From NCBI GenBank assembly GCA_026014745.1, contig JAOZHS010000003.1, positions 228,137 through 292,136 on the forward strand: a DNA stretch of 64,000 nucleotides, in the 5' to 3' direction. Within the stretch, counting starts at the first letter, position 1; every line of letters begins with the position of its first letter. The DNA comes from Candidatus Bathyarchaeota archaeon. Its GTDB lineage: Archaea; Thermoproteota; Bathyarchaeia; Bathyarchaeales; Bathycorpusculaceae. Positions 3,080 through 17,516 of the stretch are shown piece by piece. The translations under genes were made by a program, and so were the position numbers. The notes under the pieces were generated by a model. It had not been told where the DNA came from. It saw only the letters and a program-made list of their open reading frames with translations, and searched no databases.

Positions 3080-4489
3080 TTGAAAACTCTTTCAGTTGCA
3101 AAATTCGGCGGTAGCCTCCTTGACGTCGAAGGAAAAGGAATCCCCAAAATCCTCCAACGCATAAACGAAATCAAAAGCCAAAGTGACCGCGGTCCAATTG
3201 CGGTGTTTTCTGCACCTATGGGCTGCACTGACGAGCTCATCCGAATAGGAGAATCCTACGCGCAGGGCTGCGGGTTACCCTTAGATCCCGTCTTTGCGAT
3301 CTATGACCACCTCGCCCGAATGTACGTGAAGCCAGAGTGGCTAGGTCAAGCCCTAAATGAATTCGCAAACTACAAAACCCTCACACAAACCGCCCTAAAC
3401 GCCGTGAATAAGCGGTTTAGTGGCAACCTCAAAGCGCGCACGCTAACCTTAGGCGGCGAAGTAGCCATGGCCACACTGATGGATTATATCCTCAAAAGCC
3501 ACGGCATGGACTCCTATGCAGTTTCATTACATGACTGGCCCGTAATCACGGACGACAACTTTGAAGAAGCAAATCCCAATTACGAATTAAGCAAAAAACG
3601 CCTAAACGGCTTAACAAGACTCATAGAAGCGGGAAAGGTGGTTCCTTTAGCTGGTTTCTTGGGGACTACGGTTGATGGAGTTGAAACGATTTTAGGCAGA
3701 GGGGGCAGCGACTTAACCGCGGTTTTCGTATCTTGCCTACTCAAAGACAACTACCAGACCCAAACGTTACTCTATAAAGATGTGCCTGTTCAAAGTGCTG
3801 ACCCTAAAGTAGTCAAAGGCCAAAAAACCACACACGTCTCAGCCTTAACCTATAATGAAGCCCATAAAGCGTCGATGATGGGTATGAAAATCGTGATGAG
3901 CCCCGCCATTGCGGTAGCTCGACGATTCAACCAGCCCCTAACCGTGGTACCCATCGACGAACCCCAAATGACTTCGGTTATTCAAGCCCAAGAAGTTCCC
4001 GGAGAAGTCGTCAAATGCTTAACTGGCAAATCAGGCTGCGCCATCCTATCGCTAAACGACGAAAAAAGCCGTAGTCTCGAAGATGCCTTGCGCATCTGGG
4101 AACGCCGCAACGATTTCCTTGACCTTGGCGCAGAGGCTATGGAGACTGGCGAACGCATCCGCGACTTCCTATTTCTAGATAGCGACTTCCTACGTAAAAA
4201 CGAAGAAAAAATCAAAGGGTTCGATGAAAACCTCAAAATCGAGTATGGTCTGGGCGTCGTCACCCTTATCGGCGACCGCATGAAAGACAGCCCCGGCGTT
4301 GCGTCAGTAGCAATGAGCGCAATTTCAGGCATCAACGTAAAACGCGGGATCTTCGCCCCCCACACCAGCCAAATAATCCTTGTGGTGGAGGACAAAAACG
4401 TCGCCGCCACCGTCTCCGCCATCCATCAACACAAACAAGAATTAAACCAACCGCCAAATTGGTCCATGGGTTTCCCGCCGACCCCTTAG
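3080..4489 (+). CDS. lysC: aspartate kinase
   Basis: Phosphorylates L-aspartate, the first step towards lysine, threonine and methionine. The N-terminal amino-acid kinase domain begins with VAKFGGSLLD (substrate loop) and contains GRGGSDLTAV (nucleotide-binding loop). The last ~130 residues hold two ACT-type regulatory domains, with YGLGVVTLIGDRMKDSPGVA followed by SGINVKRGIF, which in the family bind lysine or threonine. TTG 3080 (469 aa, GGTGG upstream) fits the usual start just before the kinase loop; an in-frame start at 3047 adds 11 non-family residues. It is transcribed alone, with no other lysine or threonine gene in view, so the feedback ligand is unknown. Confidence 0.9.
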   Translation: MKTLSVAKFGGSLLDVEGKGIPKILQRINEIKSQSDRGPIAVFSAPMGCTDELIRIGESYAQGCGLPLDPVFAIYDHLARMYVKPEWLGQALNEFANYKTLTQTALNAVNKRFSGNLKARTLTLGGEVAMATLMDYILKSHGMDSYAVSLHDWPVITDDNFEEANPNYELSKKRLNGLTRLIEAGKVVPLAGFLGTTVDGVETILGRGGSDLTAVFVSCLLKDNYQTQTLLYKDVPVQSADPKVVKGQKTTHVSALTYNEAHKASMMGMKIVMSPAIAVARRFNQPLTVVPIDEPQMTSVIQAQEVPGEVVKCLTGKSGCAILSLNDEKSRSLEDALRIWERRNDFLDLGAEAMETGERIRDFLFLDSDFLRKNEEKIKGFDENLKIEYGLGVVTLIGDRMKDSPGVASVAMSAISGINVKRGIFAPHTSQIILVVEDKNVAATVSAIHQHKQELNQPPNWSMGFPPTP

Positions 4490-5711: not shown

Positions 5712-6707
5712 TTGGCTAACCTCCTAACACCCTTAACCGTTGCGGGCTATACTTTGCGTAACCGAATTGTATATCCGCCGATGCAGACTAACCGAGCCGA
5801 CTTCGACGGGGCCGTAACGGCTAAGCTCATAAACTTCTACCTTCGCCGATCCTCCGCCGTGGGGTTACCCATTGTTGAACACGCCTATGTGTCGCCTGCG
5901 GGCAAAATCGGCGTCAAACAACTCGGCATCCACGACGACCGCCTAATTGAAGGATTCCAAGCGCTTGCAGAAGGGCTTCACAGTGTGGGGGCGCCGGCTG
6001 TGGTGCAGATTAGCCACGCTGGCGGGGTCGCTACCGCTAAAGTTATCGGCGTCACGCCCGCTGGTCCCTCGGCTTGGGGAAAAACGCGCACGCTAGAAGT
6101 AGAAGAACTTCAATGTATTGCGGATGATTACGTTTCGGCAGCTAAACGTGCCATGAAAGCGGGGTTTGACGGCGTAGAATTACATGGCGCGCATAGTTAT
6201 CTGCTCAACCAGTTCCTTTCGCCCCTGCTAAACAAACGCGAAGATGACTGGGGCGGTTCATTGGAGAAACGCATGAAATTTCCTTTGCTGGTGACTAAAA
6301 GAGTCCGCGAATGCATAGGCAAAAACAAATTGCTGCTCTACCGCGTGGGCTCGGATGATTTAGCGCCAAATGGCACCCACATCGAAGACGCCATCATCTT
6401 TGCCAAAAAGCTTGAGGCAGAGGGCGTGGATATTTTGGATGTTTCGGGCGGCATGTGCGGCAGTGAACCCAAACAGCTTCGAAACGTGACGGGCTATTTT
6501 GTTCCTCAGGCGCAAAAGGTTAAGGAATCTGTTGGGGTACCCGTTATTGGCGTGGGCGGCATCGCTGAGCCCCTGTTTGCCGATAGGTTGGTGCGTGAGG
6601 GGCAGGTGGATTTGGTTGCTGTGGGGCGTGCTTTGTGGCATGATGTTGAGTGGGCGCAGAAAGCTGCTCAAACAATACAAGCTGTAGCCGATAAATCGAG
6701 TTTTTAA
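5712..6707 (+). CDS. old yellow enzyme-type NADH:flavin oxidoreductase
   Basis: 331-residue single-domain FMN TIM barrel. Visible motifs: LRNRIVYPPMQTNRA (FMN-binding start), ELHGAHSYLLNQFLSP followed by NKREDDWGGS (family signature with the His..Asn-like substrate pocket), and VPVIGVGGI then VDLVAVGRALW (FMN phosphate loop). It lacks the C-terminal 4Fe-4S and FAD domains of 2,4-dienoyl-CoA reductases, so it is the short OYE class that reduces activated C=C bonds with NAD(P)H. The start is TTG 5712, immediately before the conserved NLLTPL segment. The physiological substrate is unknown. Confidence 0.88.
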   Translation: MANLLTPLTVAGYTLRNRIVYPPMQTNRADFDGAVTAKLINFYLRRSSAVGLPIVEHAYVSPAGKIGVKQLGIHDDRLIEGFQALAEGLHSVGAPAVVQISHAGGVATAKVIGVTPAGPSAWGKTRTLEVEELQCIADDYVSAAKRAMKAGFDGVELHGAHSYLLNQFLSPLLNKREDDWGGSLEKRMKFPLLVTKRVRECIGKNKLLLYRVGSDDLAPNGTHIEDAIIFAKKLEAEGVDILDVSGGMCGSEPKQLRNVTGYFVPQAQKVKESVGVPVIGVGGIAEPLFADRLVREGQVDLVAVGRALWHDVEWAQKAAQTIQAVADKSSF

Positions 6708-7592: not shown

Positions 7593-8669
7593 GTGGAAAG
7601 CGATAAGGTGAACAACAAAGAAGGTCACGTTAAAAAGGAATTATCCTTGGGGTTATGGGAAAAGTACCTTACTCTATGGATAGCCCTGTGTATCGTTGTG
7701 GGGTTACTTGTGGGGCAGTTTATTCCTGCTTTCGGTCAGTTTATGGATTCCCTCAAATTCGCTAAACTGTCCATTCCAATCGGGATATTGCTTTTCTTTA
7801 TGATGTATCCGACTGTGGTTGGAATACAATTTAGTGACGTTAAAAAGGCTGCGCGTAACCCTAAGCCGCTTATTGTTACAATTATAGCTAATTGGATTAT
7901 TGCTCCACCGCTTATGACTTTCTTGGCAAACGTGTTTTTTGCTGGAAATCCGCAATACGTTGCTGGTTTAATCCTCTTAGGCTTGTCTCCATGTACTGCT
8001 ATGGTTATGTGGTGGATGTTTCTGGCCAGAGGGGATATGGCACAAGGCTTGATTAATACAGCTTTTAATGCACTTCTGATGCTTGGGTTGTATGCTCCAT
8101 TAGCTGCAATCTATTTGGGCGTTAGTAGTATCCCTGTTCCTTGGGATTTGATTGCTATAAGCGTTTTAGTGTTTATTGCCTTGCCCGTTGGCGCTGGAGC
8201 GCTATCTCGCCGCCTCATTATTCGTAAGAAAGGGGAGGAGTGGTTTAAGGACAAATACAATCCGGTAGTTGGCAAAATTTCCATAGTTGCTTTGCTGCTA
8301 ACATTGATTGTTCTTTTCTCCTTTGAGGGTAAAACCATATTGACTAACCCTGTTTTGGTTGCTTTACTTGCAGTGCCTCTGCTGATACATTACGCTATTA
8401 TGATTCTTTGGACTTATCCGCTAGGTTACTTTTCAGGCTGGAAATATGAAAGCGCCATTGACACCACAATCATAGGTAGCAGTAGCCACTTCGAGGTCGC
8501 TATAGCAGTAGCTGTCACACTTTATGGAATTGGGTCGGATGCGGCTTTGGCAACAGTAATCGGACCACTATTAGAAGTGCCGCTTATGCTCTCTCTTGTT
8601 AAACTTGGGCTAAGGACAAGAAAATATTTTCCGCGAAAACCAAAGAGCATAACTAACCCACCTATCTAA
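7593..8669 (+). CDS. acr3: ACR3-type arsenite efflux transporter
   Basis: 358 residues with about ten membrane helices. The segment LGLSPCTAMVMWW carries the invariant cysteine of the fourth helix of Acr3, and PIGILLFFMMYPTVVGI is the second-helix signature. The C-terminal part (SSHFEVAIAVAVTLYGIGSDAALATVIGPLLEVP) is also typical. It exports As(III), probably proton-coupled. The start is GTG 7593. The last codons and the TAA (8667-8669) lie inside an 82-bp repeat shared with the mobile element end, so the native C-terminus may have been replaced. No arsR or arsenate reductase is adjacent. Confidence 0.9.
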   Translation: MESDKVNNKEGHVKKELSLGLWEKYLTLWIALCIVVGLLVGQFIPAFGQFMDSLKFAKLSIPIGILLFFMMYPTVVGIQFSDVKKAARNPKPLIVTIIANWIIAPPLMTFLANVFFAGNPQYVAGLILLGLSPCTAMVMWWMFLARGDMAQGLINTAFNALLMLGLYAPLAAIYLGVSSIPVPWDLIAISVLVFIALPVGAGALSRRLIIRKKGEEWFKDKYNPVVGKISIVALLLTLIVLFSFEGKTILTNPVLVALLAVPLLIHYAIMILWTYPLGYFSGWKYESAIDTTIIGSSSHFEVAIAVAVTLYGIGSDAALATVIGPLLEVPLMLSLVKLGLRTRKYFPRKPKSITNPPI

Positions 8670-8742
8670 TTTCTTTGGGTTCTTTGTTTATTCATTTTAA
8701 TCCCTGTGTCGTATTTGCAGGTTTCTAGTTATAAACTTTAAG
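8661..8742. repeat. module P, copy 1: relict of the mobile-element left end (integrase promoter and 5' end)
   Basis: 82 bp closely similar to 9812-9894. Shared blocks are CCTATCTAATTTCT, ATTCATTTTAATCCCTG and TCTAGTTATAAACTTTAAG. On the minus strand it holds a TATA-like GTTTATAAC followed by ATGAATAAACAAAG, a frameshifted version of the integrase N-terminus at 9847. No tRNA or att core is left beside it; it joins directly to acr3. I read it as the left end of an older, decayed relative of the integrated element. Confidence 0.7.
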
Positions 8743-9473: not shown

Positions 9474-9566
9474 GGTTAGAGCTTATATTTTTATTCCATC
9501 GAAACGATTAGCCGATTTTGATTGTTTACTGTTTTGCTGGCAGGGCAGAATCCTTGCTTACAATAA

Positions 9567-9698
9567 GTTCCCTATTTCCCTACGGCGGCGGGGAAGGGGA
9601 TTTAGGGGTGAAGAGGGGGAACTCGTCCATACCTCAACTGTTCCTTAGAGACGGTGGGTGAATTCTACCACTGGCGGAGAAGAGGGAGTCGGGACCGA
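9567..9698. repeat. module A, copy 1: G-quadruplex/hairpin repeat
   Basis: About 132 bp, highly similar to 10914-11042. It contains four G-runs (9590-9593, 9596-9599, 9605-9608, 9615-9619) separated by 2, 5 and 6 bases, a canonical G-quadruplex motif on the plus strand. It also contains hairpin-forming segments such as TTCT...AGAA around 9663-9681. It abuts the integrase relict at about 9703. No ORF with support crosses it. Confidence 0.75.
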
Positions 9699-9702
9699 TG
9701 CA

Positions 9703-9746
9703 ACACCTTTCTTTTTGAGGTCAAAATTACCTCTAAGGGTTGAGCT
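9703..9746 (-). pseudogene. relict of an integrase 5' coding region (older element)
   Basis: Just outside the exact 56-bp att core, about 40 bp still match the current integrase gene (read SAQ.LEVIL then LKK) at roughly four of five positions, with a one-base deletion that breaks the frame. The match stops where module A copy 1 begins, so most of this integrase has been deleted. This explains why similarity to 17303-17346 continues past the core: the left neighbour was itself the right end of a related element. Confidence 0.65.
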
Positions 9747-9802
9747 GATTCAAAATGGGGGCGAGCGGGGGTAAAAGTGGACCGAGCGGGACTTGAACCC
9801 GC
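9747..9802. repeat. attL core, 56-bp direct repeat
   Basis: Identical over 56 bp to 17347-17402. The right-hand 25 bp (9778-9802) is the 3' end of tRNA-Ala (T-arm and acceptor strand, minus orientation). The remainder lies downstream of the tRNA. The next base differs (C9803 versus G17403), which defines the crossover boundary. Only the 3' third of the tRNA is present here, so this is an attachment site and not a second tRNA gene. Confidence 0.9.
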
Positions 9803-9811
9803 CTCAAATAG

Positions 9812-9894
9812 CCTATCTAATTTCTCAGGGGGTGTTTGTTCATTCATTTTAATCCCTGCATTGTTATTGTAGATGTCTAGTTATAAACTTTAAG
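9812..9894. promoter_or_regulatory. module P, copy 2: integrase promoter and 5' end
   Basis: 83 bp matching 8661-8742. On the minus strand a TATA-like AGTTTATAAC (9880-9890) lies about 35-40 bases before the integrase ATG (9847). In the excised circle it would drive the restored integrase. In the integrated state it drives only the int(N) stub, which could shut off the enzyme after integration. Confidence 0.65.
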
Positions 9895-9905
9895 ATAGAA
9901 ATCAG

Positions 9906-10829
9906 TTATCCAAACACATCCACCAATGAACGTTTAGGTCTTGGTCTAATGTCAATATCAAATTCCTTGAGAATAATCGCGCTTTGAATTATGAAGTCAA
10001 AACAGAAGCTAAAGTCTTCTTCTGAGGGGTCTTCAGTTCGTCTTGGAAGACGCTGGATATAGGCGTCTGACTCCCCTCTAAGAGACACCGCACGGGCTGT
10101 TAATAGCTTGAAATGGCTATATTTTCGGTAATCAAGCCCTAGACTGATTATTTTTACAGCATGTTGTAAATCTGCTATCGCATTTGTGATTGTTCTATCC
10201 GTGATTTCGTTATAATAGAAAGTCATGTCTTGCCCAAAGAAGAATGGCGATCGTCCGTATGAATCGCGTTTTCTATCCTCGTAATCATGAATTAACTCTT
10301 CAAAAGCAATAGCTACTTTGTCCATAGCGTCCTCTTTTTTGCCGTCTTTGAGAAGTTGTTTCGCAATAGAAAGTGTTTTTCTTGTTTTTTCGCAACCAAC
10401 CATATCAATTAGTGATATTTCATCAAAGTTTGTTCCGAAAACTGTCGCAGTATTTTCAACCATAAAAGCAAACACATAATATTTCGCCTCGTCAATTGCA
10501 GAACTGGACGGCGGTGTCCCGTGATGTTTAAGTGCTACCCGTATACCGTTCAATTTCTCGATTTGAATTCTTTGCGTTAGCTCATTTTTTCCATTAAGCT
10601 GTAAAATTGGATTTATGTTATTCCAATATTCCCCAAAGTGTAGCTGTTTTACTCCTTTTGAAACACCCAATTTCTCGGCTGAGAGCTCAAGAAATAGCTC
10701 GACCGCATCATGAAAGTGCAATATTGAAACCCAGCAGAAGGGTTCGGGTTCTTTGGATTTTTCAGTACCTAAAGTAACAAGATATTTTATGAAAGAGAGT
10801 CGCTCAATCATTTTCTCCTCGATGCCCAT
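9906..10829 (-). CDS. HEPN-like hypothetical protein (307 aa), element cargo
   Basis: All-helical protein of unknown function. The N-terminal half has ILHFHDAVELFLELSAEKLG and LNGIRVALKHHGTPPS, which resembles HEPN-type helical bundles where a conserved 'N..R...KH' helix faces the active or binding site. The C-terminal half has charged helices, with a short Pro/Arg-rich end (IDIRPRPKRSL). The ATG at 10829 is taken, but ATG 10811 has a better Shine-Dalgarno (GAGGAG). It lies between modules A and P, the variable slot of the element. A role in defence or persistence is possible but not shown. Confidence 0.6.
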   Translation of the reverse strand: MGIEEKMIERLSFIKYLVTLGTEKSKEPEPFCWVSILHFHDAVELFLELSAEKLGVSKGVKQLHFGEYWNNINPILQLNGKNELTQRIQIEKLNGIRVALKHHGTPPSSSAIDEAKYYVFAFMVENTATVFGTNFDEISLIDMVGCEKTRKTLSIAKQLLKDGKKEDAMDKVAIAFEELIHDYEDRKRDSYGRSPFFFGQDMTFYYNEITDRTITNAIADLQHAVKIISLGLDYRKYSHFKLLTARAVSLRGESDAYIQRLPRRTEDPSEEDFSFCFDFIIQSAIILKEFDIDIRPRPKRSLVDVFG

Positions 10830-10913
10830 TCTTCATCCGCTCCATCGATTTCTTTAGTAACTTAAAATATCGTTTATTGCAATTCAGGGGTTAATAATTT
10901 TTGCATAAGCGCA

Positions 10914-11042
10914 AGTCCCCTATTCCCTACGACGGCGGGGAAGGGGATTTAGGGGTGAAGAGGGGGAACTCGTCACTATCTCAATTATTCCTTAGAGACG
11001 GTGGGTGAATTGCCCCAGAGGGCAAGAGGGAGTCGGGACCGA
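10914..11042. repeat. module A, copy 2: G-quadruplex/hairpin repeat upstream of rep
   Basis: About 129 bp. The G-quadruplex motif at 10937-10966 has the same loops (AA, ATTTA, TGAAGA) as copy 1. A hairpin TTGCC-CCAGAG-GGCAA (11010-11025 region) replaces TTCT...AGAA of copy 1, so paired positions changed together. TCTCAA with TTAGAGA and CCCCTA with TAGGGG can also pair. It stands about 300 bp upstream of the rep operon, so a replication origin or a structured RNA are both plausible. Confidence 0.75.
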
Positions 11043-11142
11043 GGCTACTCCCTTCGTGTGTGCATTTACTTTAATTTTTTTAAATTTAAATGGTTTGAGT
11101 TGCGTTGATGGGTTGGATGTAGGCTTTTTTGCTTCGGGTTAA

Positions 11143-11359: not shown

Positions 11360-11599
11360 ATGTTCCAAACATCAGAAAAGAATCACGCTTCAATTCAATC
11401 TTCTAACAGTAATTTTATTCCTGATTGCCCTTACAAACGTTTGAGTTGCTTAAAGTACGATTCCGTTTTGCAACGTGCTACTTGTCAAGGTAAGGGTAAT
11501 CAATATTCCGCTATGCGTTGTTGTCGGTTGCCTCCGTGGGTTAAGCCTAAGGATGGTTTTAAGGTGGCTGTTTTGCGTGGGGGGCGTTTGCATGTCTAA
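11360..11599 (+). CDS. cysteine-rich small protein upstream of rep (79 aa)
   Basis: The T-ending codon use matches rep, and the frame ends eight bases inside the rep start at 11592, suggesting translational coupling. Cysteines occur as DCPYKRLSC, RATC and MRCC, a possible zinc-binding set. GGAGGAGGT lies 20 bases upstream of ATG 11360; another ATG (11349) in a different frame is better spaced but encodes only 31 residues. Function unknown; in small rolling-circle replicons such ORFs are often copy-number or DNA-binding proteins, which is inference. Confidence 0.5.
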   Translation: MFQTSEKNHASIQSSNSNFIPDCPYKRLSCLKYDSVLQRATCQGKGNQYSAMRCCRLPPWVKPKDGFKVAVLRGGRLHV

Positions 11600-12617
11600 A
11601 TGGTGGTGGGTTTCTTCGATAAAGGTCGTGTTTGTAGTTATCTGTTTTGTAGGTTTTGCTGGTTCTCTCAGCGGGTATCTGGCAGGCTTTGGGCTTTTGT
11701 TGTTTTGCATGGGTGGTATTGGTGCGACTAAGTGGATTCCTTATTTTCCCGAGTATGACAATTTTGACGCAAAGTGGCGTGATTATTGCGCTTACGAGCA
11801 ATTACACGGCGACATGGGCAACCCTGATGTTTTTCATTTCGAGCATGGCAACTGGATTGTTGTTGGTCATGGGGAGAAAACTAATTGGAAGTGTGGTCAA
11901 TGGAGAAGACATGATATTTGTAACCGTGTTGAATTGCACGCTCAAGCGGACCTGTTGGGTGTGCATCATGCTGGAGAAGTTTTTGTCCACATGGTTCATA
12001 CGTGGTGTCATAGCTATTCGTGTCCAGTTTGTTATTTGAAGGGTGCATGTTTGCGGGAAGCTGAGCATATTTCTCAGCGAATTGAAAAAGCATCAGCGGG
12101 CGGAAAAGACAGTAAAGGTGTATATCATGCGCCTTTGGGTGAGCCTCAGCACGTTATCGTTTCGGCTCCTCAGTCTGATTATAATTTGGCTGAGTTTGAG
12201 CACGAGAAGTGGTGCAAAAAGTGGCGCTCAATAGTCGCTGAAGTGGGAATTATCAATGGCGGTTTCTGTTTCCACGGTTTCAGGTTCGCTGATTACATTG
12301 AATCGATAGAGAAGGGCGTTCCCTACGGGTTTTATTGGTCGCCTCATGTACATATTCTTGGTTTTATTGAGGGTGGTTATGGAAAGTGTCGGCATTGCAC
12401 TAAGACCGAGAAAGTCTATCGTGCTGGTAGCGGTAAAATTGTTAAGAAACACGGGGATAACCGTTTCTGTGCTTCCTGCGATGGTTTTGAAAATAGGGTG
12501 AGACAGAGTTTTGAGAAACACCGCTACATCATCAAAGTAACTGATGAGCGCAAATCTGTTTTTGCAACAGCATGGTACCAACTTTCGCATATGGCAATCA
12601 AGAAGGGAGTTCGGTAA
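11592..12617 (+). CDS. rolling-circle replication initiator (HUH Rep), proximal part
   Basis: The three RCR motifs are visible: QHVIVSAP (motif 1), WSPHVHILG (motif 2, metal-binding HUH, about residues 250-256) and AWYQLSH (motif 3, catalytic Tyr near residue 329). A cysteine cluster CHSYSCPVC (about 139-147) and a second one (CRHCTK...CASC) are like those of haloarchaeal plasmid/virus Reps. The protein nicks the double-strand origin and stays on the 5' end. The start at ATG 11592 gives an unusual hydrophobic segment (residues 10-44); ATG 11709 is the alternative that omits it. The frame ends at TAA 12615, after which the family's conserved end continues in the same frame in the next ORF. Confidence 0.8.
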   Translation: MSKWWWVSSIKVVFVVICFVGFAGSLSGYLAGFGLLLFCMGGIGATKWIPYFPEYDNFDAKWRDYCAYEQLHGDMGNPDVFHFEHGNWIVVGHGEKTNWKCGQWRRHDICNRVELHAQADLLGVHHAGEVFVHMVHTWCHSYSCPVCYLKGACLREAEHISQRIEKASAGGKDSKGVYHAPLGEPQHVIVSAPQSDYNLAEFEHEKWCKKWRSIVAEVGIINGGFCFHGFRFADYIESIEKGVPYGFYWSPHVHILGFIEGGYGKCRHCTKTEKVYRAGSGKIVKKHGDNRFCASCDGFENRVRQSFEKHRYIIKVTDERKSVFATAWYQLSHMAIKKGVR

Positions 12618-12899
12618 ATGAGCATTTCCGCTTGCGTAGTTAAAAGTCGTGTGCGTGGCTTTGTTTGGTTTGGTTCACTGAGTTATCGACGGTTACACAT
12701 AACCTATGAATCCCGTAAGTTACTTTGCCCTTTATGTAAACATGAACTTGAGCCTGCATGTTACTATGGTTCAATGGTTTTTCAGCATGACTCTATGAAG
12801 AGCGATTATAAAACCAACTTCTGGATGCCTCTTAAAGAAAATGGTGAAACTGTTTGGTTACTTGCGCCTGATTTGAAAAAGCATAAGCAGGGTTGGTAG
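12618..12899 (+). CDS. Rep distal part, in the same frame after an in-frame TAA
   Basis: 93 residues beginning with ATG immediately after the TAA of the upstream ORF, in the same reading frame. VRGFVWFGSLSYRRL is the segment that normally follows the motif-3 'SH' helix in related archaeal Reps ('WFGxLSY'), and CPLCKHELEP is the expected C-terminal zinc knuckle. So either a nonsense mutation split rep, or the protein is made as two pieces by termination and re-initiation at TAAATG. The rest of the frame is intact and uses the same codons, which argues that any break is recent. Confidence 0.65.
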   Translation: MSISACVVKSRVRGFVWFGSLSYRRLHITYESRKLLCPLCKHELEPACYYGSMVFQHDSMKSDYKTNFWMPLKENGETVWLLAPDLKKHKQGW

Positions 12900-13035: not shown

Positions 13036-13794
13036 TTATATTATACTTGCGGAATCCACAAGTTCTGCGAGAACCACTATTAGCGTTAGAAGTTTGAGGG
13101 CTCTCATAGGACTTATGTTAAATATTGCATGTGCTTTTGTATCTCGAATACCTTGTACCGTTCCTGCGAAAATTAGTTTGTATCCATCTAATTCATCTTT
13201 ATCGATTTGTGTACTATTTTTTGTCCAACTGAGAATGGGATTTTGGCTATCAAATACTCGGTGCATCAAACTGACTCCTGATAACTCTCGTCCTTTGTTG
13301 TCCTTGGGGTAATTAGCTTTCTTTTTTATCATTTCTTCTAGTCTAATTGCCGCGTCTAAAACAGCATTACGGTAATTTCTGCCATTAAACAGCCCTGCAG
13401 ATACTGTTTTGATTTCCGGATGTGTTATTATTTGTTCGAATAGGGCTTGGGCTTTTTCGTCTTCTTTGGTTATTGGAGGCTGGGTTTTTTCTTGAGCATT
13501 AGTAATATCTTCTAAAGTTTTTTCGTAAATCTTATTCGCGTAATTGCTCTTTTCTTCAGTAGTCTGTAGCTTCGAACGGAAAAATACAAAGAAGTCAGTT
13601 AAAGATGGAAACTGTTTGGGCACTTTGATTCCACAGGCAACACAGTTTTCGTCAATTTTTTTGCTTAATGCTGTATATTCCTTCTCTTTGTCGTTTGCTT
13701 CAATTCTTCCCTCAGCGACATGAGTGATTAATGTAGTGATGTTTTTAATCTGGTCCCTGAGCTCAGGGAGCTTGGTCGTGTCAGTCATATGCAA
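13036..13794 (-). CDS. Ymh/TIGR02391-type HEPN family protein
   Basis: The C-terminal half matches this family: GLFNGRNYRNAVLDAAIRLE, GVSLMHRVFD, then GYKLIFAGTVQGIRDTKAH. RDTKAH fits the R-x4-H motif of HEPN ribonucleases. The N-terminal part (about 110 aa) is helical with a CVACG pair. Such proteins occur in plasmids, prophages and defence islands and are suspected toxins or abortive-infection RNases. GGAGG lies six bases before TTG 13794 and twelve before ATG 13788. It is divergent from the DUF262 gene across 107 bp. Confidence 0.75.
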   Translation of the reverse strand: MHMTDTTKLPELRDQIKNITTLITHVAEGRIEANDKEKEYTALSKKIDENCVACGIKVPKQFPSLTDFFVFFRSKLQTTEEKSNYANKIYEKTLEDITNAQEKTQPPITKEDEKAQALFEQIITHPEIKTVSAGLFNGRNYRNAVLDAAIRLEEMIKKKANYPKDNKGRELSGVSLMHRVFDSQNPILSWTKNSTQIDKDELDGYKLIFAGTVQGIRDTKAHAIFNISPMRALKLLTLIVVLAELVDSASII

Positions 13795-13901
13795 TCCAGC
13801 CCTCCTTTATTTTATTTTTAGCTATAAAGATTTAACGAATTTATCTCCTCTTTCTAAACAGATATAACGAAGATAGACCTACAGATTAGCGGTGTATCTT
13901 A

Positions 13902-14966
13902 ATGGTTGTTGATTATAATCCTTGGGAAGCGCAAGTTGGAGATATAAAAGGTCAGTATGACCGCGGTGAAATAATTCCCGATCCCGATTGGCAGAGAGGG
14001 TACATCTGGACCTTAAAAGATGAAAGGTTATTAATTGATTCAATACTTAGAAAAATTCCTATTCCTAAGTTCTATCTTACGGAAGAGTACGATAGCAAGA
14101 AGGGTGCTTGTATACATTATGTAGTAGATGGTCAACAGCGTATAAAGGCGATATATCGCTTTCTTAACAACGAATATACAATCGAAATAGGTGATAAACA
14201 ATATCTTTTCAAGGATTTGGATAGCAAAACTCAACAAAAAATAATTATTTATAAGTTGAGTGGTCACTACATGGTTGATTTCACCACTCCGGATATTGTT
14301 TTCCTATTTGAGCGGTTAAACCGCACGGGTATTAAGCTAACAAATATGGAATTGTGGAATAGTCGGTACTATGGAACAAAAATTCTTACCTTAATTCGCG
14401 ATATTTATGAAAATGTTTTTGATTTTCCAACCAAGCGTGATTACAGAGATTATGATGATACAGACACTCAAAAACTTCAGAAATCTTATGTTGCAGCTGT
14501 TTATACGGAAGAGCAAATCAAGAGAATGCTTCCATTAGACGATATTGTGGACTTATTGAATTGTCTCCATAGAGGAAAGGTGGATAGTGGCAATAAGGCT
14601 GATTTAGAATCGTTCCTTTGGAGTAAAAAAGAGATAGCAGACGCCGAAAGTATAGCTCTTAAAGAGAAAGTCAAATCAATTATAACCAATATTAAGGACA
14701 TTTTTACTAAAAAGGACTTAGAGGATTCACTTTTCAGTAAAAGAACACATTTTATTAGTTTATTACTTGCATTCGGGCTGTTTCCCCCAAGTCACAACAT
14801 ATCCAAGAATTCGCTGACTATCAAAAAGGAATTATTGAATTTCATTGAAAACCAACCGGAAGATTATAAAGAAAGTGTAGCTGGGGGCATTAGGCACAAG
14901 GAAAGACGAGAGTTAAGGGTAAAATACTTCCATGAAATTATTTCTAAGTATTCTAATAAACCCTAA
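13902..14966 (+). CDS. DUF262 (GmrSD N-terminal-like) protein
   Basis: 354 residues. HYVVDGQQRIKAIYRFL is the DGQQR motif of the ParB/Srx-like DUF262 domain, and FLFERLNRTGIKLTNMEL is the family's second signature. In GmrSD type IV restriction enzymes this domain hydrolyses NTP and controls a DUF1524 HNH nuclease. Here no DUF1524 domain is fused; the C-terminal 150 residues are helical. The next gene encodes an unrelated HNH nuclease on the other strand. A defence role is likely by family, and its partner is unknown. Confidence 0.82.
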   Translation: MVVDYNPWEAQVGDIKGQYDRGEIIPDPDWQRGYIWTLKDERLLIDSILRKIPIPKFYLTEEYDSKKGACIHYVVDGQQRIKAIYRFLNNEYTIEIGDKQYLFKDLDSKTQQKIIIYKLSGHYMVDFTTPDIVFLFERLNRTGIKLTNMELWNSRYYGTKILTLIRDIYENVFDFPTKRDYRDYDDTDTQKLQKSYVAAVYTEEQIKRMLPLDDIVDLLNCLHRGKVDSGNKADLESFLWSKKEIADAESIALKEKVKSIITNIKDIFTKKDLEDSLFSKRTHFISLLLAFGLFPPSHNISKNSLTIKKELLNFIENQPEDYKESVAGGIRHKERRELRVKYFHEIISKYSNKP

Positions 14967-14973
14967 ACTATCT

Positions 14974-15576
14974 TTATTTTTTCCATTCAATATGTCCATT
15001 AACTTTATTTTTTTCATAGACTTCTAATATTTGTCTACAAAAATCCATTGTTTGACTATCTTCGATTGCTTTCGATTTTTCGTACAATCGTATAAAGTAT
15101 TTTTTACCTGATTCAGTTTGTTTATAATTCTTCTTCTGGAAGTTATGCTGAGCACAAAGTGTTTCACCATTATCGATTGTAGCTTTTCCGCCTTGGTCTT
15201 TGGGTTTAATATGATCTACTTGTAATTCGACGCCGTTTTCTCGTCCTCTTCCGCAAATAACACACTTGTATCCATCACGTTTCATAATTTCTTCTTTTTG
15301 CACTGGAGTAAAATCTTCTAAATCTCTTTTTTGAACAAACTCTGGTTCATATCGATAAATGCCTTTCGATACTTTGACTAATAATCCGCTTTGTGATAAT
15401 TTTCGTATGGCTCGATCTGGGTCACGTAAGATTTTACCGGTTCGTTTGAGCCATTCTGCAGTTGCCCAATCAACTATTTCCGGATGAGGTATGTTCTTAT
15501 TTGGGTTCTTTTTGAAGTATTCCATTAGTAGGTTTGACTGGGATCCGTTGTTTTCGTCTACGCTTTTTAGTCCCAT
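14974..15576 (-). CDS. HNH restriction endonuclease (type II candidate)
   Basis: 200 residues from ATG 15576, chosen because GAGG lies six bases upstream; the frame is open to 15627. The N-terminal half is a winged-helix-like DNA reader (NIPHPEIVDWATAEW...LSQSGLLVKVSKGIYRY). The C-terminal half is an HNH domain: RDGYKCVICGRG, LQVDHIKPKDQGG and ETLCAQHN, with two Cys pairs for zinc. It starts inside the 3' end of the methyltransferase gene (80-bp overlap), the expected order for a co-regulated restriction-modification pair. The recognition site cannot be read from the sequence. Confidence 0.8.
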   Translation of the reverse strand: MGLKSVDENNGSQSNLLMEYFKKNPNKNIPHPEIVDWATAEWLKRTGKILRDPDRAIRKLSQSGLLVKVSKGIYRYEPEFVQKRDLEDFTPVQKEEIMKRDGYKCVICGRGRENGVELQVDHIKPKDQGGKATIDNGETLCAQHNFQKKNYKQTESGKKYFIRLYEKSKAIEDSQTMDFCRQILEVYEKNKVNGHIEWKK

Positions 15577-16408
15577 TGTTTTCCTCTTGCTTAACAAGAG
15601 CGCTTTCAAATATATGTGCTTGGTCAATTAAGCGTTTCTTTGCTATTTTGCAGTACTCTAAGTCTATGTCTATGCCGATGCTTCTTCTGTTATCTAATGT
15701 GGCAGCTACTATGGTGCTTCCTGAGCCTAAAAATGGATCTAATATTAAGTCATCAACGAAGCTAAATAGTTTTATACAGCGATGGGGGAGCTCAATCGGA
15801 AACGGTGCTGGATGGCCGGTTCTTTTTGCACTTTCTCCATTAAAAGTCCATAATCCGTTTGTCCAATCCATAAAATCCTTTCTAGCTATGTCTGAAATCT
15901 TACTGCCGCTTGTTTTTTTCCAACTGTTCTTATAGAGAACTACAATTAACTCTACAGGGGCAATAACGAAAGGTGCTGAAGCTTTCATCCATGAACCCCA
16001 TGCAGTTCTTCGCGATATATTACCTTCGTTCCAAACAATTGTTGAGTGATATTTGAATCCAACTTTTTTGGCAATTGTTGTTAAATCTGCTCCAACACTT
16101 TGCTGGCCATTTTTGTTTTTATCAAGCGGTATATTGAGGCAAAAACGCCCATCGTTCTTTAACCAATTAAAACATCGAGTCATCCATTTATTCGAGAATT
16201 CCAAATAATCCTCGTATGAGATTTTGTCGTTATGATTATTGTATTTAATATCAACATTGTAGGGCGGTGAGGTTATGATTAGATCTATGGTTTCTTTATC
16301 TAATTGTTTTGTTGTAAGAACGTCTTCGTTAACGATTGTAACCTTGGGGTTTTTGAAGAAGGGCTCTTGCATTTCGGTTTCTCTCTGTAGAGGTTTTTTC
16401 TTTTTCAT
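15497..16408 (-). CDS. type II DNA methyltransferase (beta class, N4-C or N6-A)
   Basis: Motif IV IITSPPYNVD precedes motif I ILDPFLGSGSTIVAA, the beta-class order, and IGIDIDLEYCKIA follows. TSPPY is common in N4-cytosine methyltransferases but also seen in adenine ones. It protects host DNA from the downstream HNH enzyme. ATG 16408 is used; ATG 16375 is possible. The basic C-terminus (GTKKRRRKQRIP) is unusual and overlaps the endonuclease start. With the HNH gene it forms a complete R-M module of the integrated element. Confidence 0.88.
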   Translation of the reverse strand: MKKKKPLQRETEMQEPFFKNPKVTIVNEDVLTTKQLDKETIDLIITSPPYNVDIKYNNHNDKISYEDYLEFSNKWMTRCFNWLKNDGRFCLNIPLDKNKNGQQSVGADLTTIAKKVGFKYHSTIVWNEGNISRRTAWGSWMKASAPFVIAPVELIVVLYKNSWKKTSGSKISDIARKDFMDWTNGLWTFNGESAKRTGHPAPFPIELPHRCIKLFSFVDDLILDPFLGSGSTIVAATLDNRRSIGIDIDLEYCKIAKKRLIDQAHIFESALVKQEENNGTKKRRRKQRIPVKPTNGILQKEPK

Positions 16409-16460: not shown

Positions 16461-17516
16461 CTACTTTGGTTTTCTGAATATTTGGTATCCATCTATCTCT
16501 GTAAATTTAGTGAAGCCTGCTTCAGCTAATTCGCACATTTCTTTTAGTGTCGTGGGCGTTCCTACTTGAACAGTCCTTGAAATGTATTCGTCGGTTTTGA
16601 AGTTGATTAAGTGAGTGTAGATTAGAGTATGTTCGATTCGTTTGTGTCCGAGTTGTTGTTTTACAAGTAGGATATCCTTAGTTTTCGCATATAGCATTGT
16701 TGCGTAATAATGTCTTAAGTCGTATAATCTAAACTTGGTTAGCTCTTGTTGGTTGAGTTTCTTGGCCAATTGATTTCTTCTAAGAACCCATATATGGCAT
16801 TGCTTTTTTGTTGGGGGAAACAAAACATCTGTTTGTTTAAAGCAGCACTTTGTAAGGTACTCTTTAAGCATTGCCAAGGTTGGTTGTGGTAGCTTTAGAA
16901 TTCTTGCGGCTCCATTCTTGGCTGTTTTTGGTGTTATCGTTCCGTTTTCTTGATTAATATTTTTTAGTCGTAGCCTATGTAGTTCGACTGGTCTTAGTCC
17001 TGTGTCTCTTAATATGCTAAAAATGGTTACGTATTTTCTGGTAAAAGTCGCGATTATAGCGTTGACTTGTTCGGTTGTTGGTACATTTGGGAGTCTTTCC
17101 TCTCTTGTAAAAAATGGTTTTTCCCATTTCAAGCCGTAGAATTTTACAAAGTGGTCGTATGCGTTAGCGTATGCTTCTTTGTTCGCATTGCTTGATTGCA
17201 GATTAGTAATGTATTCCTTGACAGGCTCTGGGTTGTTTATTTTGGTGCTTTTTGCAAGGTGCCTTAGCCTTCTGCTGTAGCCGTTTATGGTGTCTTCTGC
17301 TTTCCCTTGCTTTTTAAGGTCTAAAATAACCTCTAACGTTTGAGCGGATTCAAAATGGGGGCGAGCGGGGGTAAAAGTGGACCGAGCGGGACTTGAACCC
17401 GCGACTTCCGCGTTGCGAACGCGGCGATCATACCGCTGATCTACCGGCCCGTATTTGCTGGAAATAGTTTGGATTGTGAATTTAGAGGTTTCGGTTTGTG
17501 ATTGCTTGTTTAACAA
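16461..17516 (-). CDS. int: tyrosine recombinase/integrase body, int(C), partitioned archaeal type
   Basis: Catalyses integration and excision at tRNA-Ala. A SAM-like core-binding domain (TINGYSRRLRHLA to FYGLKW) is followed by the catalytic domain with RDTGLRPVELHRL (Arg I), LYDLRHYYATMLY (YxxR in place of HxxR), LGHKRIEHTL and Tyr in LIYTHL. The first ~38 codons of the open frame (17516-17403) are read through the chromosomal tRNA gene and its upstream flank, and are not native. The native start is at 9847. Codons from 17402 (AGSSPARST...) are shared by both copies. Whether the integrated form is expressed from 17516 is unclear. Confidence 0.88.
   Translation of the reverse strand: MLNKQSQTETSKFTIQTISSKYGPVDQRYDRRVRNAEVAGSSPARSTFTPARPHFESAQTLEVILDLKKQGKAEDTINGYSRRLRHLAKSTKINNPEPVKEYITNLQSSNANKEAYANAYDHFVKFYGLKWEKPFFTREERLPNVPTTEQVNAIIATFTRKYVTIFSILRDTGLRPVELHRLRLKNINQENGTITPKTAKNGAARILKLPQPTLAMLKEYLTKCCFKQTDVLFPPTKKQCHIWVLRRNQLAKKLNQQELTKFRLYDLRHYYATMLYAKTKDILLVKQQLGHKRIEHTLIYTHLINFKTDEYISRTVQVGTPTTLKEMCELAEAGFTKFTEIDGYQIFRKPK
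17347..17402. repeat. attR core, 56-bp direct repeat
   Basis: Exact copy of 9747-9802. The part from 17378 to 17402 is the 3' end of the intact tRNA-Ala gene. 17347-17377 lies inside the element-encoded integrase frame. The distance between equal positions of the two copies is 7,600 bp, the predicted size of the excised circle. Confidence 0.92.
17378..17450 (-). tRNA. tRNA-Ala, anticodon CGC
   Basis: 73 nt read on the minus strand. The acceptor stem GGGCCGG pairs with TCGGTCC (two G-T pairs). The anticodon stem CCGCG/CGCGG holds the loop TTCGCAA with CGC at the anticodon. The T-arm GCGGG/CCCGC holds TTCAAGT. The discriminator is A and no CCA is encoded. It decodes GCG. Its 3' 25 nt form part of the att core, so integration of the element left the tRNA intact. 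Confidence 0.92.

Follow-up and report, generated by a model that had tools for sequence, protein, structure and literature searches.

A hairpin-rich module of tRNA-integrating elements in Bathyarchaeia as a candidate origin region

A non-coding module of ~140 bases with several hairpins occurs twice in the window, a stretch of 64,000 nucleotides analyzed from a Candidatus Bathyarchaeota genome (2.7 Mb in three contigs). The locus raises the question of what such a module does beside a gene for a Rep of putative rolling-circle type. To our knowledge, how mobile DNA replicates in Bathyarchaeia has gone unstudied for want of cultures; we also know of little work on second-strand priming in archaea.

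Two module copies at a tRNA-Ala gene

Copy 2 of the module lies inside a 7.6-kb element that is integrated in tRNA-Ala(CGC), and it precedes a rep gene with HxH and Tyr motifs (Table 1). The element extends from a displaced 3' fragment of this tRNA gene to the intact gene, and its direct att repeat (9706–9802 and 17305–17402) is 93% identical over 98 nt. The product of the tyrosine integrase gene also matched NCBIfam XerA_Arch (E=7.7e-32, below the cut-off). Both traits of tRNA-integrating archaeal elements, namely direct att repeats that include the tRNA 3' end and a tyrosine integrase, were thereby found. Copy 1 lies in what is left of a presumably older element, part of which is deleted. 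The placement upstream of rep given in the preliminary description of this DNA is correct for copy 2. The 3' end of copy 1 is joined to an integrase-like stretch at the att site: the 70 nt from this copy to the att fragment match the integrase-proximal sequence at the other end of the element. To judge from these matches, the older element probably lost the part between its module and its integrase gene, and the joint would thus lie at H4.

The element also carries defence-like cargo (13036–16408), comprising a Ymh/HEPN-like protein, a GmrSD/NsnA-like nuclease, an HNH nuclease, and a type II DNA methyltransferase. Between the left end and copy 2, an ORF on the minus strand (9906–10829) matches phrog_37995, a viral family of no known function (E=4e-64).

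Table 1. Features of the module locus (positions in the window)
Feature	Position	Strand	Basis or remark
Left-end sequence, second copy; start of the older tandem element	8661..8742	+	repeat D2/D6
Module copy 1	9566..9711	+	covariance model R1, 148.6 bits; direct repeat starts at 9706
H1 hairpin, copy 1; holds G-runs 1 and 2 of the proposed G-quadruplex	9568..9600	+	folds; covariation
Linker TTCCTTAGAGACGGTGGG, conserved, copy 1	9641..9658	+	
H3 variable stem, copy 1, TTCT..AGAA (hairpin of the preliminary description)	9663..9681	+	
Terminal hairpin H4, copy 1; partial decay of the 3' arm, A-A mismatch	9682..9710	+	
Left att of the present element, a displaced piece of the tRNA-Ala(CGC) 3' end	9776..9802	-	direct repeat
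Left-end sequence of the element, adjoins att	9812..9894	+	repeat D2/D6; same sequence at att in G010
Module copy 2	10914..11055	+	covariance model R1, 143.2 bits
H1 hairpin, copy 2	10916..10947	+	folds as RNA and as DNA; covariation
Linker, conserved, copy 2	10988..11005	+	
H3 variable stem, copy 2, TTGCCC..GGGCAA	11010..11025	+	
H4 terminal hairpin, copy 2, AGGGAGT / ACTCCCT, loop conserved	11026..11054	+	
rep, probable start 11709	11709..12617 (ORF 11475-12617)	+	HxH and Tyr motifs, Cys pairs
Small ORF, like the C-terminal part of longer Rep homologues	12618..12899	+	by eye against alignment A7
Tyrosine integrase gene, enters the att repeat	16461..17402 (ORF listed to 17516)	-	phrog_1 integrase, E=2.5e-34
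Intact tRNA-Ala(CGC), right att	17377..17450	-	ARAGORN, Rfam RF00005

Read from 5' to 3', the module has hairpin H1 (arms TCCCC..TTCCC and GGGAA..GGGGA), then TTTAGGGGT and a variable stretch; the linker TTCCTTAGAGACGGTGGG comes next, ahead of the variable stem H3 and of H4, whose stem carries the conserved loop CGGRAGCGATGCC. It reaches past H4 and is longer than first described. The two copies are 91% identical over 96 nt and 88% identical over a following 32-nt block. About one tenth of the positions differ, among them the change from TTCT/AGAA to TTGCC/GGCAA; these arms (TTGCCC...GGGCAA in full in copy 2) read as they had been described. The G-rich 30-mer GGGGAAGGGGATTTAGGGGTGAAGAGGGGG, reported to be identical in both copies, was indeed found at 9590–9619 and 10937–10966, and these are its only two sites in the 2.7-Mb genome, where a control with the reversed pattern gave no match. 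Two further pairs of arms had been called kept. This does not hold in copy 1 for TCTCAA/TTAGAGA, which there reads CCTCAA and whose 5' arm is not conserved in relatives; the CCCCTA arm, too, is intact only in copy 2 and reads TTCCCTA in copy 1. Inspection ruled out a protein-coding 3' half, because the lengths of the copies differ by non-multiples of three and stops are present.

Relatives of the module and selection on its fold

Homologues were searched for by BLAST and with two covariance models, R1 (built from seven copies) and R2 (the 3' half of the module). R1 matched in 11 of 90 genomes of the host's family (E<=0.1) and in nine of 201 genomes of the class (E<=0.01). Of 256 genomes of the class, 20 had an R2 match (E<=0.001); four of these matches (in G149, G150, G118, and G155, with E of 4.7e-4 to 6.5e-4) looked spurious on inspection, and those counted as real were likewise read by eye. 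Scanning 84,980 species genomes with one 17-base core returned 14 stretches, and on inspection only five of these, all from Bathyarchaeota, had the module around the core. All named relatives that carry it are Candidatus Bathyarchaeota MAGs. Most hosts have one to three copies per genome; several copies, among them those in G012 and G024, consist of the 5' half only.

None of the Rfam covariance models matched the module at the gathering threshold, and a search at E<=5 reported nothing but the tRNA-like fragment of att, as tmRNA. No match was obtained in a plasmid collection with the module DNA and the window-type Rep as queries, nor in a phage collection with a Rep homologue as query. Two patterns run against viral contigs gave seven stretches, none of which contained the module on inspection. 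One of the seven (L090, from viral contig IMGVR_UViG_2648501603) has an AGTCCCC..GGGGATTTAGGGGT hairpin that resembles the module's; at about position 3300 of L090, AAAGTCCCCTTCAGGGGATTTAGGGGTGAAA is a short hairpin in this unrelated contig with a flanking motif as in H1. The 5' half of the module looks like a hairpin with TCAA after it, which prompted a comparison with the right end or omega RNA of an IS200/IS605 element. This candidate was rejected, as Y1 transposase elements of the genus end differently; the window genome gave no match to Y1_Tnp and a single match to PF07282, below the cut-off.

The preliminary description had taken the paired changes between the two copies as a sign of selection on structure. 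Two copies alone cannot show covariation; with 14 sequences for each of H1 and H4, covariation is clear. In H1 (alignment A4, sequences with a visible H1; G087, G109, G160, and G013 left out), 91.5% of 130 cells were paired and four of 10 pairs changed on both sides, a number that two of 500 shuffles reached; the 12 both-sided cells were reached by none of 500, and slid controls were lower. In H4 (alignment A9; G015, G008 C74, G022, G087, G013, and G012 C27:119347 left out for altered 3' ends), 92.9% of 112 cells were paired and six of eight pairs changed on both sides (12 of 500 shuffles), with 16 both-sided cells (none of 500) against six in the best slid control. Both hairpins exceeded the shuffles and slid controls by the cell and score measures, in tests where the hand-picked rows favour pairing and the kinship of the sequences inflates the shuffle results. 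For H3 and H4 together, eight sequences gave 11 both-sided cells (0 of 500 shuffles) in five pairs, the latter matched by 135 of 500 shuffles. The aligned sequences thus support selection on the structure of the module, as had been suggested, and the loss of covariation on adding copies that would have refuted this did not occur. The hairpin named at that time, H3, proved to be the variable stem; its single folds differ in strength (z from 0.2 to -3.1 in 13 copies). The loop and linker are better conserved than the stems.

RNAalifold also proposed a long-range helix, H2 (TTTAGGGG/TTCCTTAGA). This complementarity is almost invariant and includes three G-U positions, but despite 96.6% pairing it had no both-sided change, and H2 is not claimed here. 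It accommodates the changes seen in G087, and a local TTTAAGGA/TCCTTAGA hairpin of G160, only under alignments chosen by eye.

Folded as DNA, the plus strand of copy 2 formed H1, H3, and H4 (z -1.8, equalled by nine of 200 shuffles). Energy does not fix the strand, since the minus strand folds about as well (z -2.1). Wobble pairs on the plus strand of H4 were seven G-U/G-T against one A-C; in H1 they were four against four A-C, so that strand preference is weak there.

The G-quadruplex proposed earlier turned out not to be conserved. Four tracts of at least three G are kept in both window copies, in G018, and in G015, that is in four of 17 distinct copies. Elsewhere the tracts are broken and H1 is retained where it is present. 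G-runs 1 and 2 form the 3' arm of the covarying H1; they change to GGAAAA, GGGAAA, or GAGAGAA, mostly with a matching change in the opposite arm.

tRNA genes and rep genes near the module

The module lies inside att repeats in three integrated elements or remnants: the window element, an element in G010 that has an att repeat of this kind together with module and rep, and an att-flanked remnant in G018. It is found ~60 nt from tRNA-Ala with no element in G015, and ~110–130 nt upstream of tRNA-Arg(CCT) in G008 (C74) and G013. The core follows a tRNA 3' end or fragment after 83 nt in G160, G147, and G243 and after 57 nt in G121 and G157. In all five genomes examined, which belong to families f16 and f6 (other than the host's), the tRNA 3' end before the core is GGGCTAYCA, and in at least two of them the module precedes a Rep unrelated to that of the window. 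Looser neighbours are an integrase gene at 0.7 kb in G233 (Pfam match just under the cut-off), a tRNA-Pro at ~1.9 kb in G008 (C81), and a tRNA-Arg-like gene at ~1.3 kb in G087. The neighbourhoods inspected around the copies in G012, G022 (C2), G024, and G109 held no tRNA gene and no known rep, att, or integrase.

In G233 (L178, about 6000–6700), the non-coding stretch that holds the module has many inverted repeats; on one side is an RNA polymerase B gene, near which an integrase lies, and on the other are small ORFs. In G010 (L034, 8434–9420), a cargo ORF of 214 aa separates a full module from the 3' end of another, as if a cassette had been swapped between modules. A second hairpin repeat of 75 nt, with the core GGGTGCCCTTTAGGG within GCGAG/CTCGC and GCAAAAAC/GTTTTTGC arms, gave 22 matches in nine of 61 genomes, sometimes next to a 5' half-module or ahead of rep (L062, 1293–1362; L096, 7327–7395; L069, about 11450–11530, minus strand; L040, about 4060–4121, minus strand). 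Its outer arm looks compensated in G022.

An alignment of 11 Rep sequences (A7) had H252, H254, and Y329 invariant (numbered from a start at 11592). In the window and in G010, Rep looks divided between neighbouring ORFs, with the TAA of the first directly before the ATG of the second, whereas other homologues have the Cys-rich C-terminal part within one chain. The predicted structure was poor (pLDDT 61) and its structural matches were not significant (best HUH match, E=0.12), which is too weak for naming the fold. HxH and Tyr motifs occur in the Reps of the window, G010, and G160 elements; the Rep of G160 belongs to PF23343, and Reps of the G160/G147 type are not alignable with that of the window.

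The window-type Rep gave 14 match rows in nine of 61 genomes; two rows come from parts of a single gene, leaving ~13 places. At about three of these the module is present: upstream of rep in the window and G010, and as a 5' half in G022, the latter a weak match (nhmmer E 0.26–0.53) read by eye. The G160-type Rep gave 16 rows in 11 of 101 genomes, and the module is present at three of the 16 places: upstream in G160 and in a remnant in G147 (E 0.18; 1.8e-12 with R2), and on the 3' side of rep in G139. Wherever it lies upstream (window, G010, G160, the G147 remnant, and the 5' half in G022), it has the orientation of rep. The distance to rep varies, with cargo genes or a divergent ORF in between. 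A second rep in G010 has only the 75-nt repeat, ~2.6 kb upstream. The link between module and rep is specific, yet far from universal; many rep places may be decayed or served by other origins.

A candidate origin region, its alternatives and known systems

We give about even credence to the module acting as the origin region, structured and either double-strand or single-strand, of rolling-circle elements that integrate at tRNA genes in Bathyarchaeia. This reading combines the position in an integrating replicon, near att and at some loci before rep, with a selected fold that has a conserved loop and with experimental precedents for hairpin origins in archaea, which are SNJ2 (PMC13107129) and pRN1 (PMC4234260). 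A rolling-circle origin upstream of rep, as first suggested, stays the best-supported function, given the integrated element with its HxH/Tyr Rep and the modules before rep in G010, G160, and the remnants in G022 and G147, but most rep places are without a module.

A structured RNA, either a small RNA or the leader of a rep operon, would be transcribed toward rep, fold into H1, H3, and H4, and regulate rep or the element. The wobble bias of H4, the G-U positions within the near-invariant TTTAGGGG/TTCCTTAGA complementarity, the conservation of loop and linker beyond the stems, and the shared orientation with a downstream rep all point to RNA. Rfam, however, gave nothing at either the gathering or the weak threshold, other genes intervene before rep at varying distance, neither a conserved promoter nor a T-run was seen by eye after H4, and H1 shows little strand preference. 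Plus-strand ssDNA accounts equally for the data. We consider the RNA rather improbable.

We regard it as quite unlikely that the module is a passenger hairpin repeat, spread with or between mobile elements and marking recombination joints with no origin function of its own. The copies do vary in flank and completeness, several being 5' halves (G012, G024); junctions lie at hairpins, as in copy 1, which is fused to integrase-like DNA at H4; G010 has another H4-like end past a cargo gene; and the separate 75-nt repeat is dispersed. A dead repeat, however, would not retain covariation, and the low copy number in most hosts, the conservation of loop and linker across families, and the fixed spacing to tRNA 3' ends also speak against a passenger. 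The G-quadruplex switch is highly improbable: the window copies hold four tracts of four to five G and RNAfold gives a lower energy when a quadruplex is allowed, but few distinct copies keep the tracts, and tracts 1 and 2 mostly change together with the opposite arm of H1.

If the module is an origin region, the element would form a circle after excision, and Rep, presumably of rolling-circle type (HxH and Tyr), would initiate replication. The displaced plus strand would fold in the module into H1, H3, and H4. H4, with its covarying stem and conserved loop, and the conserved linker TTCCTTAGAGACGG would then be the recognition sites, and the variable H3 stem ahead of H4 may serve as an arm for specificity. 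Two Reps that cannot be aligned share this core, which could therefore be a nick hairpin common to both or, just as probably, a single-strand origin that host enzymes read. Sharing between such Reps leans to the single-strand origin; the covariation, which speaks for a selected structure, and the folding of the plus strand of copy 2 as DNA are as expected of such an origin. The conserved-loop H4 after the variable H3 resembles a double-strand origin as in SNJ2. Copy 1 would be the origin of the older element, whose middle was presumably lost between module and integrase.

In the boldest reading, which we put forward tentatively, the module would be a family of archaeal single-strand origins that do not depend on Rep, the first such family to be recognised: covarying multi-hairpin ssDNA that is read by the host, shared by unrelated rolling-circle elements across Bathyarchaeia families, and left beside tRNA genes when these elements decay. 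A true single-strand origin would reveal how archaea prime second-strand synthesis. As a candidate archaeal rolling-circle origin, the module offers a defined stretch of 140 nt that can be tested. Being structured and recognisable by sequence, it also offers a handle for finding such elements, and what is left of them after decay, beside tRNA genes. Both hairpin origins and elements that integrate into tRNA genes are already known; in the literature searched, with subscription papers mostly outside it, no account of the module was found.

Among known systems, the rolling-circle origin of the haloarchaeal virus SNJ2 and betapleolipoviruses (PMC13107129) is likewise archaeal and from an integrating element. 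It is bipartite, with a conserved hairpin after an inverted repeat that varies, much as H4 comes after H3. It lies downstream of a Rep-Arvir gene, of a family placed outside the HUH superfamily, whereas the module lies upstream of an HxH/Tyr Rep, and the likeness noted is one of arrangement. In the replication stem-loop of pRN1 from Sulfolobus (PMC4234260), the stem is kept in shape and not in sequence, downstream of a primase-helicase Rep; the module, in contrast, has a conserved loop and linker, and the authors of that study reject rolling circle for pRN1. The Thaumarchaeota elements (PMC6563490) are integrated in tRNA 3' ends, also in tandem, and one encodes a rolling-circle Rep; they belong to another host group, and the available part of the report describes no such module. 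STAXI (PMC2864571) leaves the same doubt between RNA and ssDNA as the module does. In rolling-circle plasmids and ICEBs1 (PMC4595007), which are bacterial, single-strand origins proven by assay are orientation-dependent multi-hairpin elements, found in an integrative element and independent of the type of Rep. The module resembles them in its several hairpins and in its place in integrative elements, and may do so in its independence of Rep and in its dependence on orientation.
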